Shown here: positions 20,111 to 22,734 of the stretch, piece after piece
How positions within the stretch are numbered: position 1 is the stretch's first letter
How the letters are laid out: each line of letters opens with the position of its first letter
NCBI GenBank assembly: GCA_018433865.1
Contig: JAHDQJ010000007.1
Location: 62,001-126,000 of the forward strand
Length of the DNA: 64,000 nucleotides
Reading direction: 5' to 3'
Origin: Spirochaetales bacterium
GTDB taxonomy: Bacteria; Spirochaetota; Spirochaetia; Sphaerochaetales; Sphaerochaetaceae
Position numbers and translations under genes: made by a program
Notes under the pieces: generated by a model
What the model was told of the DNA's origin: nothing
The model's database searches: none
Seen by the model: only the letters and a program-made list of their open reading frames with translations

Positions 20111-20665
20111 CTAGGCGAGATCGAGATCGGCCGCGATCGTGCGCATGCCCTCGATGGTCAGCCGGATGACCCTGTCCAGGTCCATCCCCATCCTCGAGGC
20201 GCCTTCGGCGATCAATTCTCGATTCACGCCCGCTGAGAATCCCTTTGTCTTCCATTTTTTCTTCACGGATGAGACTTCCAGGTCGGAGAGGCTTCTCGAT
20301 GGTCGCATCAATGCGGTCGCGGTCACCAAGCCGGTAAGTTCATCGATCGTGAACAGTACCTGTTCCATGCGGTGCATCGGTTCCACATCGCTGCAGATGG
20401 TCCATCCGTGTGAGAGTACGGCACGGATCATCCGCTCGTCGACTCCTGCCTTGCGTAGCATGTCGGGAGCGTGCTTCAGATGCTCCTGTGGATACAGTTC
20501 ATAGTCGATGTCGTGCAGGATTCCCACGATTCCCCACCAATCAGGATCCTCCCCATACTCCGTGGCGAAGCGGCGCATCACCGCTTCGACCGACAACGCG
20601 TGCCTATAGAGGCTCTCCGAGCTATTATAAGACCGATACAACGCCAGCGCATCTTCCCTGGTCAT
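20111..20665 (-). CDS. HD-domain phosphohydrolase
   Basis: A 184-residue HD-superfamily protein: LYRHALSVEAVMRRFA (first His), GIVGILHDIDYELYP (HD pair), HGWTICSD and LFTIDELTGLVTA (C-terminal Asp). This layout resembles the small HDIG-like hydrolases often annotated as 'hydrolase, HD family' (substrate probably a nucleotide). Start 20665 is supported by GGAGGTGATC immediately upstream; the longer frame upstream has no ribosome site. Confidence 0.87.
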   Translation of the reverse strand: MTREDALALYRSYNSSESLYRHALSVEAVMRRFATEYGEDPDWWGIVGILHDIDYELYPQEHLKHAPDMLRKAGVDERMIRAVLSHGWTICSDVEPMHRMEQVLFTIDELTGLVTATALMRPSRSLSDLEVSSVKKKWKTKGFSAGVNRELIAEGASRMGMDLDRVIRLTIEGMRTIAADLDLA

Positions 20666-20781
20666 GATCACCTCCGCTCGCATATCTGCGATGTACTTCG
20701 ATTTGTACCACTTGCTCGCCAAAGGGGCAATCACCCCGGCAAAACTTTCCAATCCCCCTTTCCTACAAGATGCGGATGTGC

Positions 20782-20787
20782 TATGAT
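20782..20787 (+). promoter_or_regulatory. Extended -10 element upstream of the corA leader
   Basis: TGCTATGAT gives an extended -10 with hexamer TATGAT (20782-20787). No strong -35 is seen. It lies about 60 nt before the leader ORF and 197 nt before corA. Confidence 0.4.
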
Positions 20788-20846
20788 TTTTCCGAGAAAC
20801 CCATTGCCAGGCAGGCGATGGATCCCCACACGGCAAGGAGGAAGCT

Positions 20847-20942
20847 ATGTCGACTACAGACGATGGCGGGAGTAGACGCTATCGCCCATCAACACCCAGC
20901 AACCGACCCTCCTTCCGAATCACTGTCATGACCGTCCGCTGA
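20847..20942 (+). CDS. Putative 31-residue leader peptide of corA
   Basis: ATG at 20847 is preceded by a strong AAGGAGGA ribosome site (20835-20842) and opens a 31-codon frame ending in TGA at 20940-20942, 41 nt before the corA ATG. The peptide starts MSTTDDGG and has prolines at positions 14, 17 and 21. Known Mg2+-transporter leaders (MgtL, CorL in Salmonella) are also short, and MgtL is proline-rich, but no sequence similarity is claimed. It is too short for ordinary gene finding. Its role as a regulator of corA is inferred from position. Confidence 0.55.
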   Translation: MSTTDDGGSRRYRPSTPSNRPSFRITVMTVR

Positions 20943-20952
20943 ACGGGCAGGG

Positions 20953-20986
20953 CATGGTTCCCCGGGAGGGTCCAGGAGGAACCATG
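20953..20986 (+). promoter_or_regulatory. Hairpin sequestering the corA ribosome site and start codon
   Basis: A perfect 9-bp inverted repeat: CATGGTTCC (20953-20961) and GGAACCATG (20978-20986), with a 16-nt loop. The right arm contains the last two G of the AGGAGG Shine-Dalgarno and the whole corA start codon. Loop bases 20965-20972 (GGAGGGTC) are perfectly complementary to GACCCTCC (20905-20912) inside the leader ORF, allowing an alternative or tertiary pairing. Confidence 0.55.
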
Positions 20987-22012
20987 ATCACCATCAGACA
21001 TGATATTGCCAGCCGCATTCCAGGTGATACCGCGCCGAAGAGCGGGTACACGTGGATCGATGCCCGCGAGATAACCCGCGACGACATCACCGAACTGCAG
21101 GAGAACTATGCGATCAGCTCGGAACTCCTCGCAGACATCATGGACCTGGACGAACAGGCCCGGATCGAGAAGGAGGACGAGTACGTCGCCCTCATCGTCC
21201 GTCTGCCGGCATTTGCCGATGACAGTCACGGGATCAACCAGTATTGCGTCCCCTTGGGAATCGTGATGATGAAAGACACCATCATCACGATCTGCCAAAG
21301 CGATAGCGTGATCCTTGAGGATTTTGCGAGGAATCGTTTCCGTCAATACCCGGTCCAGACCCAAGAGGGGTTCGTGATCAGCTTGATGGGCCGCGCCGCG
21401 ATGGTCTTCATCCGCTTGCTCAAGTATCTGAACAGACAGAAGAGCTTGATCGAAGAGGAGCTGCATAGGTCCGTCCGCAACGACGAGCTCATACAACTGC
21501 TCTCCATCCAGAAATCGCTCGTATACTTCACCACAAGCCTCACGACCAACGAGATTCTCCTTGAGAAGCTGCAGAAATCCCCATGGTTCAAGACCAACAA
21601 CGAAGATGAGCGCGAGTTCCTCGAAGACGTCATCATCGACAACAAGCAGGCAATCGAGATGGCGAACATCTATTCATCGATCCTGACCGGCACGATGGAT
21701 GCGTTCGCATCGGTCATCAGCAACAACCTGAGCATCATCATGCGACGGTTGACAGTCATCTCGATCGCGTTCATGTTTCCCACCTTCCTGGTCGGATACT
21801 ATGGAATGAACCTCGACCTTCCGTTCCAGAACAACCACCTCATGCAGTTCTGGATCATCGGCATCAGTCTCTTCGCAGGCATGTTCAGTGCCTATGTCCT
21901 CAGCGACAGAAGATCGATCAGGAGGATTGAGCGCCAGATGGAAACCAATCGCAAGAGGAAGGAGAAACGGCGTCGTTCCAATAGGAGGAAGGGGCTCGCG
22001 AAAGAGGATTGA
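20984..22012 (+). CDS. corA: CorA-family magnesium/cobalt transporter
   Basis: A 342-residue CorA: a large N-terminal cytoplasmic alpha/beta domain with the long stalk helix (residues about 130-270), then two C-terminal membrane helices. The first ends in the invariant YYGMN selectivity motif, followed by LDLPFQNNHLMQFW. The C-terminal tail is very basic (RKRKEKRRRSNRRK). It forms a pentameric Mg2+ channel in the inner membrane. The start at 20984 has AGGAGG four bases upstream, buried in a hairpin; an in-frame ATG at 20954 is possible but has only a poor ribosome site. Confidence 0.93.
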   Translation: MITIRHDIASRIPGDTAPKSGYTWIDAREITRDDITELQENYAISSELLADIMDLDEQARIEKEDEYVALIVRLPAFADDSHGINQYCVPLGIVMMKDTIITICQSDSVILEDFARNRFRQYPVQTQEGFVISLMGRAAMVFIRLLKYLNRQKSLIEEELHRSVRNDELIQLLSIQKSLVYFTTSLTTNEILLEKLQKSPWFKTNNEDEREFLEDVIIDNKQAIEMANIYSSILTGTMDAFASVISNNLSIIMRRLTVISIAFMFPTFLVGYYGMNLDLPFQNNHLMQFWIIGISLFAGMFSAYVLSDRRSIRRIERQMETNRKRKEKRRRSNRRKGLAKED

Positions 22013-22068: not shown

Positions 22069-22734
22069 ATGGATACCCCCGACTTATTGTGTGACCGTTT
22101 TGCAGGCGCGACGGTTGCCACTCAGTGGCGCAGCCTGCTCGAATTGTACAAGACCATAGAACAGGAGACGGCTTCATTCTGCCATGCCTTCGACGTCCAT
22201 TGCCCTTCCGGTTGCGGTACCTGTTGTGAGCACTTCGTGCCTGAACTCACCGATGCCGAATCCTCGCTCATCGCAGCATATCTGCTGTATGTGAAAAACG
22301 TGCCTGCTCCCGTTGCTGACGCAGGGTCCTTGTCCGGACCGTGTCCTTTGTATGACGCTCATTCCGATCACCATTGTACCGTCTATCCTGTCAGGGGCAT
22401 GATCTGCCGTCTCTTCGGAGCCTGTCCCTCGGAAAACAAGGGCGGATTTCCCGTTTTCAGGAAGTGCAAGTACAATGAAGATGCCAAGGCGACCGCAAAG
22501 CTCGGACCGGAGGATTTCGGATCGGAATCCGGCACGGTTCCCACGATGCAACGCTATGCCGTCAAGTTCTCCTCCATCACGGATGGTTCACAGAGCAAGC
22601 CTCTTGGCATCGCGGTGACGGAACAGATGAACCGGCTCAGGTTCATCGCCGCTTATCTCGATTGCGAATCTGGCGGCGATGACAACGGCGGCACCGACCC
22701 GCTGGTGCCGACTCCCAATCCGCTTGCATCCTGA
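22069..22734 (+). CDS. YkgJ-family cysteine-cluster protein
   Basis: A 221-residue protein with the CxxxCxxCC-type cluster HCPSGCGTCCEHF near residue 40, followed by CPLYDAHSDHHCTVYPVRGMICRLFGAC. This is the UPF0153/YkgJ pattern thought to bind zinc or an Fe-S centre; function is unknown. The gene lies 56 nt after corA on the same strand. A TTG at 22009 could extend it by 20 residues. Its last 82 nt overlap the end of the convergent MFS gene. Confidence 0.82.
   Translation: MDTPDLLCDRFAGATVATQWRSLLELYKTIEQETASFCHAFDVHCPSGCGTCCEHFVPELTDAESSLIAAYLLYVKNVPAPVADAGSLSGPCPLYDAHSDHHCTVYPVRGMICRLFGACPSENKGGFPVFRKCKYNEDAKATAKLGPEDFGSESGTVPTMQRYAVKFSSITDGSQSKPLGIAVTEQMNRLRFIAAYLDCESGGDDNGGTDPLVPTPNPLAS

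Follow-up and report, generated by a model that had tools for sequence, protein, structure and literature searches.

A conserved acidic leader peptide and a predicted four-segment RNA switch upstream of corA in Sphaerochaetaceae

The corA gene of Sphaerochaetaceae is preceded by a short open reading frame (ORF) whose acidic N-terminus is under selection, and the RNA that carries this ORF can form alternative helices that either bury or free the corA start. We consider it probable that this leader is a translation-coupled attenuator acting on the initiation of corA translation, in which destabilization of ribosomes on acidic leader codons reports low Mg2+. The computed support consists of conservation of the ORF at the peptide level, coevolution of three helices, and antisequestor behaviour of the late leader ORF. 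We further infer that the leader is transcribed and translated, that ribosomes abort upon it, and that Mg2+ is the signal.

The corA locus and its leader

The window, meaning the whole 64,000-nucleotide stretch of DNA that was analysed, comes from a member of the Sphaerochaetaceae (Spirochaetota) with HGW-Spirochaetae-2, HGW-Spirochaetae-4 and Sphaerochaeta sp. UBA6084 as close relatives. Its corA product matches the Pfam CorA profile (PF01544, E 3.2e-49, profile search), has CorA structures as its nearest PDB relatives, and scores below the equivalog cut-off of TIGR00383; the protein presumably imports Mg2+. The gene shares its upstream intergenic region with a divergently oriented gene and is followed at 22069-22734 by a gene whose product has a CxxCxxCC zinc/iron-chelating domain (PF03692). 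The genome also carries a second, distant CorA paralogue (L175, contig C47), which has no acidic leader upstream. The elements of the region are as follows.

20111-20671, divergent from corA: gene for an HD-domain protein (Pfam PF01966), across the shared intergenic region
20779..20787, + strand: extended -10 element TGCTATGAT, a putative corA promoter, from sequence
20801..20821, + strand: 8-bp perfect hairpin close to the presumed start of the leader RNA, from folding
20831..20841, + strand: segment 1, the leader Shine-Dalgarno (SD) region, pairing with 20908-20917 in the minimum free energy (MFE) fold (helix 1:2)
20835..20842, + strand: leader SD AAGGAGGA, from sequence
20847..20942, + strand: 31-codon leader ORF, MSTTDDGGSRRYRPSTPSNRPSFRITVMTVR and stop, with conserved N-terminus MSTTDDGGS
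20859..20873, + strand: acidic core codons D5 D6 G7 G8 S9, from conservation; proposed ribosome-destabilizing site
20905..20922, + strand: segment 2, in the late leader ORF; antisequestor 5' arm with GACCCTCCT and GAATCA
20953-20972, + strand: segment 3; antisequestor 3' arm at 20955..20972 with TGGTTC and GGGAGGGTC
20953..20963, + strand: 5' arm of the sequestor hairpin (helix 3:4), overlapping the first part of segment 3
20974..20979, + strand: corA SD AGGAGG, from sequence
20975..20986, + strand: segment 4, the sequestor 3' arm, with most of the corA SD and the ATG
20984..22012, + strand: corA-family transporter gene, 342 aa, with GMN motif

A preliminary description of this DNA had placed an extended -10, an SD, a leader ORF, a start-codon stem and a complementary pair here, and all of these elements are in place. 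Of 89 family loci, 42 have a promoter-like TGnTAnnWT site some 60 nt ahead of the leader ATG, and a strong SD precedes the leader ORF in nearly all relatives.

Conservation of the leader peptide

Of 139 family genomes, 98 have a match to CorA, which in a few is only a distant paralogue. Among the distinct Sphaerochaetaceae genomes whose corA upstream regions were read, 87 of 87 carry a short ORF that is preceded by an SD and has an acidic core, two of these leaders (L041 and L078) having been assigned by hand. Loss of the ORF and hairpin from orthologous corA leaders, which the preliminary description had named as the outcome that would count against it, is thus not what the family loci present. 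In L078 (G084), corA is in two pieces in different frames, and the leader MHTEDTVPLPER is still there.

The prevailing core in the family is M(Sxx)D[DE]GGSxxPLP, and variation around it follows genus. The window's genus and nearby genera have MSxxD[DE]GGS, genus g17 has MSxxD[DE]GGSIxPLP, genus g11 has MDEGGSINPLP or MDDGSYPLP, and much of g2 has xDDANPHP or NDDSNPLS with a GTG start. Leader length among relatives runs from 14 to about 40 codons. The adjacent aspartates at positions 5 and 6, singled out in the preliminary description, belong to the more constant feature of the peptide, with D or E at both acidic positions in 88 of the 88 loci tabulated. The prolines it had listed at 14, 17 and 21 fare less well: PLP follows the acidic core in most relatives, and P14 of the window fits this pattern, but the window has kept only that residue of the motif and the three prolines are only partly conserved.

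The codon table and the positions at which codons differ indicate that the early acidic codons are under selection. When 23 distinct cores of the D[DE]GGS type are compared, 22, 5 and 73% of the base differences lie at codon positions 1, 2 and 3, respectively. Residue identity between genomes (g17, g1 and g6/16 leaders) is 77% over residues 2-9 and 26% from residue 15 onward; the late ORF is conserved as RNA, not as peptide. Judged on sequence, the ORF is a genuine gene for a peptide under selection.

A DNA pattern combining an SD with a D[DE]GG core matches 57 of the 138 family genomes, in nearly every case immediately 5' of corA, and the reversed pattern gives only four matches in the family genomes. 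About seven sites in the 138 genomes lie away from corA; the one that was read, G114:C175, begins an ORF of some 137 codons and is not a leader.

Beyond the family, a related leader ORF was recognized, partly by eye, in 28 of 39 corA upstream regions from the wider Spirochaetia, with cores of the M(x)DxDxGS type (for example MDSDPGS, MSDPDGGS, MPDPDS and MDGGSSY). A strict automatic rule finds an ORF with an acidic pair in 20 of these 39 regions; dinucleotide shuffles yield 0.12 on average, and the reverse strand of the same regions yields none. The remaining 11 of the 39 relatives (L114, L121, L123, L125, L126, L132, L133 and L136-L139) have corA with no recognizable leader.

Alternative helices and their coevolution

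Three helices can be drawn in the leader RNA. Helix 1:2 comprises 10 bp in the MFE fold; helix 2:3 pairs GACCCTCCT with GGGAGGGTC and GAATCA with TGGTTC within a longer hairpin that holds the leader stop codon in its loop; and helix 3:4 is, in the window, the start-codon hairpin, a perfect 9-bp stem (20953-20961/20978-20986). Bases 20908-20917 are common to 1:2 and 2:3, and bases 20955-20960 to 2:3 and 3:4, so the helices are mutually exclusive unless an unusual pseudoknot forms. In every group, the conserved helices end on the corA SD and start.

The main evidence for covariation comes from a swap test, which asks whether the two arms of a helix are a better match when they come from one species than when they come from two. 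The test is alignment-free, uses representatives less than 85% identical and removes composition effects; segment boundaries were picked after the alignments had been seen, a choice that favours neither side of the comparison between native and swapped arms. For helix 2:3, native arms pair better than swapped arms in all four genus groups, by -2.4, -5.7, -4.9 and -5.9 kcal/mol (p 0.0029, 0.0001, 0.0005 and 0.0001, in the same order). The controls, with mirrored sequence or the early ORF, give differences close to zero except for the mirrored control in g2 (p 0.017), and one further mirrored control reaches p 0.044 (g11). The same helix has been replaced by different sequences in different lineages: GACCCUCCU/GGGAGGGUC in the window, GGCAUCCU/AGGAUGCC in L013, UUCUCCUGGA/UUCAGGAGAA in L009 and UCGGCUUUCGG/CCGGAAGCCGG in L011. 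The complementarity between GACCCTCC (20905-20912) and GGAGGGTC (20965-20972), which the preliminary description had offered as a competing pairing, is of a coevolving type, and corresponds to the conserved antisequestor.

Helix 3:4 coevolves in g17, g11 and g2 (p 0.0003, 0.0001 and 0.018). In the window's own genus group the swap test detects no coevolution of 3:4, since its arms there are nearly invariant (GGTTCC/GGAACC) and carry no information. That exact hairpin form is restricted to the window's genus and close genera, while in other genera the corA start site is buried by different, coevolving sequences. Helix 1:2 coevolves in g11, g2 and g1+g6/16 (p 0.0002, 0.0003 and 0.012), and the swap test detects no coevolution of it in g17.

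Counts of paired alignment columns are register-specific and barely above letter shuffles, which we attribute to the many invariant pairs and to indels that misregister columns; it is for this reason that we rely on the swap test. RNAalifold on single-genus alignments likewise yields little for g11 and g2, where indels misregister the arms. The leader region of the window folds better than its shuffles (z -2.2).

Computed switch behaviour

Truncation, comparing RNA of segments 2-4 with RNA of segments 3-4 and using swapped and shuffled controls, gave a clearer picture than scanning ribosome footprints at fixed sites. When segment 2 is missing, about 12-14 kcal/mol is needed to open the corA ribosome binding site (RBS); when it is present, the cost is 4-7.5 kcal/mol, and segment 2 lowers the cost in 75 of 76 loci. 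Native segment 2 frees the RBS better than segment 2 from other species or shuffled segment 2 (Wilcoxon p 0.006 to 2e-9), and the sequestor is stronger than it is with shuffled upstream sequence (mean z 2.1-3.1). The energy minimum of the full-length window fold is the off state, in which 1:2 and 3:4 are both formed. Similar switch behaviour appears among wider relatives, for example L104, L117, L118, L134 and L142.

The preliminary description had located the switch at the leader stop, where a ribosome would reach the base of the stem. A simulated ribosome at that position changes accessibility only partially, and footprints at fixed sites have modest, group-dependent effects. We have replaced this part of the scheme with the 2:3 antisequestor and its competitor 1:2, which involves the leader SD and early region; overall, the earlier interpretation is partly supported.

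Proposed mechanism and alternatives

In the model that we favour, helix 3:4 would bury the corA SD and start codon and so keep expression off, and helix 2:3 would engage segment 3, freeing both and turning expression on. On an untranslated leader, 1:2 would tie up segment 2 and 3:4 would form; on a fully translated leader, the ribosome would mask segment 2, again allowing 3:4. If instead ribosomes stalled or dropped off at the acidic N-terminus (DDGGS, followed by prolines in most relatives), segment 2 would be left bare, and with segment 1 occupied or just cleared, 2:3 could form and corA would be expressed. By analogy with MgtL and MgtQ (PMC11282234, PMC8092293), we propose that the acidic core D5-S9 may be the destabilizing element. 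Because acidic and proline-containing N-termini destabilize ribosomes at low Mg2+, such a leader would signal a shortage of Mg2+ in the cell and increase CorA, which is the right regulatory sign for an importer. A point against the model is that the window's peptide has fewer early prolines than MgtL.

The leader and RNA switch could be real and the cue something other than Mg2+, such as limitation of charged tRNA-Pro or EF-P, ribosome stress, an antibiotic or another divalent metal borne by CorA. Co2+ and Ni2+ are among the ions that CorA proteins can transport, corA expression in E. coli is sensitive to Mn2+ as well, and the PLP that follows the acidic core in most relatives would suit a proline-related cue. 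The Salmonella mgtP leader, 5' of mgtCBR, answers to charged tRNA-Pro (PMC8092293). The acidic pair is nonetheless more constant than the prolines, of which the window retains P14 alone from the PLP motif; wider relatives keep DxD without PLP; and acidic N-termini are a known Mg2+-sensitive feature. We therefore regard a different cue as unlikely.

It is more improbable still that leader ribosomes simply open or close the start of corA in a constant proportion, sensing nothing. The leader stop does lie near the corA start, and in g11 and g2 the RBS becomes cheaper to open when a ribosome sits at that stop. Constitutive coupling of this kind needs no specific acidic core, however, yet the core is conserved with mostly synonymous change, and all three alternative helices coevolve.

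Termination by Rho within the leader, with the start-codon hairpin secondary, has precedent in enteric mgtL and corL, and an untranslated stretch of leader could load Rho. Against this, the conserved helices of each group reach the SD and start of corA, a placement for which Rho would have no need, and a search for intrinsic terminators found no terminator-like site in the leader, where helix 3:4 carries the corA SD and start instead; we give Rho control very little credence. Hardly any credence attaches to a small-molecule or ion riboswitch that binds Mg2+ directly, with the ORF incidental, since although alternative structures do govern a Mg2+ transporter gene, the sole strongly conserved primary sequence is protein-coding and the paired segments vary freely, there is no Rfam match, M-box (RF00380) included, in the window or its relatives (the preliminary description had recognized no Mg2+ riboswitch), and the M-box is absent from all 61 family genomes searched while the positive controls Bacillus subtilis and Lactococcus lactis were detected.

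Relation to known Mg2+ leaders

The closest parallel to the attenuator proposed here is Salmonella mgtQ-mgtB, for which the logic of 1:2 plus 3:4 against 2:3 has been shown experimentally by mutation (PMC8092293). Our RNA model was drawn from alignments before we encountered that work. In both systems a Mg2+ transporter gene is preceded by a short ORF that has its own SD and early acidic codons, and both alternate between 1:2 plus 3:4 (RBS buried) and 2:3 (RBS free), in the spirochaetes by computation only. In mgtQ ribosome destabilization favours 2:3 and acts on translation, as we propose for the spirochaete leader. They differ in that mgtQ has 8 codons, lies between mgtC and mgtB in an operon and is known in Enterobacterales, whereas the spirochaete leader has 14 to about 40 codons, lies at the 5' end of the corA transcript and has the core DDGGS...PLP or DxDxGS. 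With 31 codons, a position before corA and a divergent gene upstream, the window's leader does not fit an mgtQ orthologue by descent. The arrangement resembles four-segment switches of the trp and mgtQ type, but lacks the trp-type intrinsic terminator at 3:4.

In the mgtL-mgtA system of E. coli and Salmonella (PMC8934632, PMC11282234), ribosome drop-off at an acidic and proline-rich N-terminus at low Mg2+ is established (PMC11282234), and complete translation goes with the off state, as we propose here. Part of g11 has the peptide MDDGSYPLPRK..., with PLP at residues 7-9 as in MgtL. Unlike the spirochaete leader, mgtL controls Rho-dependent termination of mgtA and not a start codon; no relation in RNA sequence was seen between the two, and the peptide likeness is short and may be convergent. 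Enteric corL-corA (PMC11552253) also has an ORF before corA and two alternative RNA structures, and in E. coli corL translation and corA expression are inversely related (PMC11552253). It is Rho-mediated, however, with fewer acidic and proline residues, and belongs to another phylum with a different peptide and RNA; only the acidic and PLP pattern is common to mgtL, corL and the spirochaete leader. The M-box (ykoK, RF00380) also controls Mg2+ transporters and involves no leader peptide. By analogy, then, the spirochaete leader appears to work like mgtQ and to share the theme of mgtL and corL, and by location, peptide and lineage it is not established as an orthologue of any of them.

The acidic leaders of Mg2+ transporters in the literature that we searched are the enteric ones. 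No spirochaete counterpart was described there, an absence that is no proof, as subscription journals were mostly outside the reach of the search. The leader and predicted switch described here belong to a distant phylum and lie ahead of a different transporter. Conservation of such a leader in a distant class would make ribosome destabilization a general gauge of Mg2+ that has evolved more than once, and the dozens of natural variants, with differing peptides and one RNA logic, offer a test set for N-terminal residues that destabilize ribosomes.

In the wider class, the RNA architecture is not uniform, as 11 of 39 relatives have no leader and some leaders overlap the corA start. The leader ORF crosses the corA start in L110, L112, L113, L140 and L141 (family f24), so complete translation could simply block corA initiation, which suggests a different geometry with the same logic. 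It is conceivable, and to our minds just short of evenly balanced, that peptide-based Mg2+ sensing is old and Spirochaetia-wide with an origin independent of the enteric systems, taking the form of a four-segment switch in Sphaerochaetaceae and of an overlap between ORF and corA start in some wider relatives.

Other features of the leader region

If translation began at an in-frame ATG at 20954, which falls within the sequestor's 5' arm, CorA would gain 10 residues (MVPREGPGGT, span 20954-20983). We set this start aside because its SD is weak, because the hairpin encloses it, and because MITIR is where the protein starts in all near relatives. The 5' hairpin at 20801-20821 (CATTGCC/GGCGATG) is absent from most other genera and kept in the nearest one, and possibly protects the mRNA.
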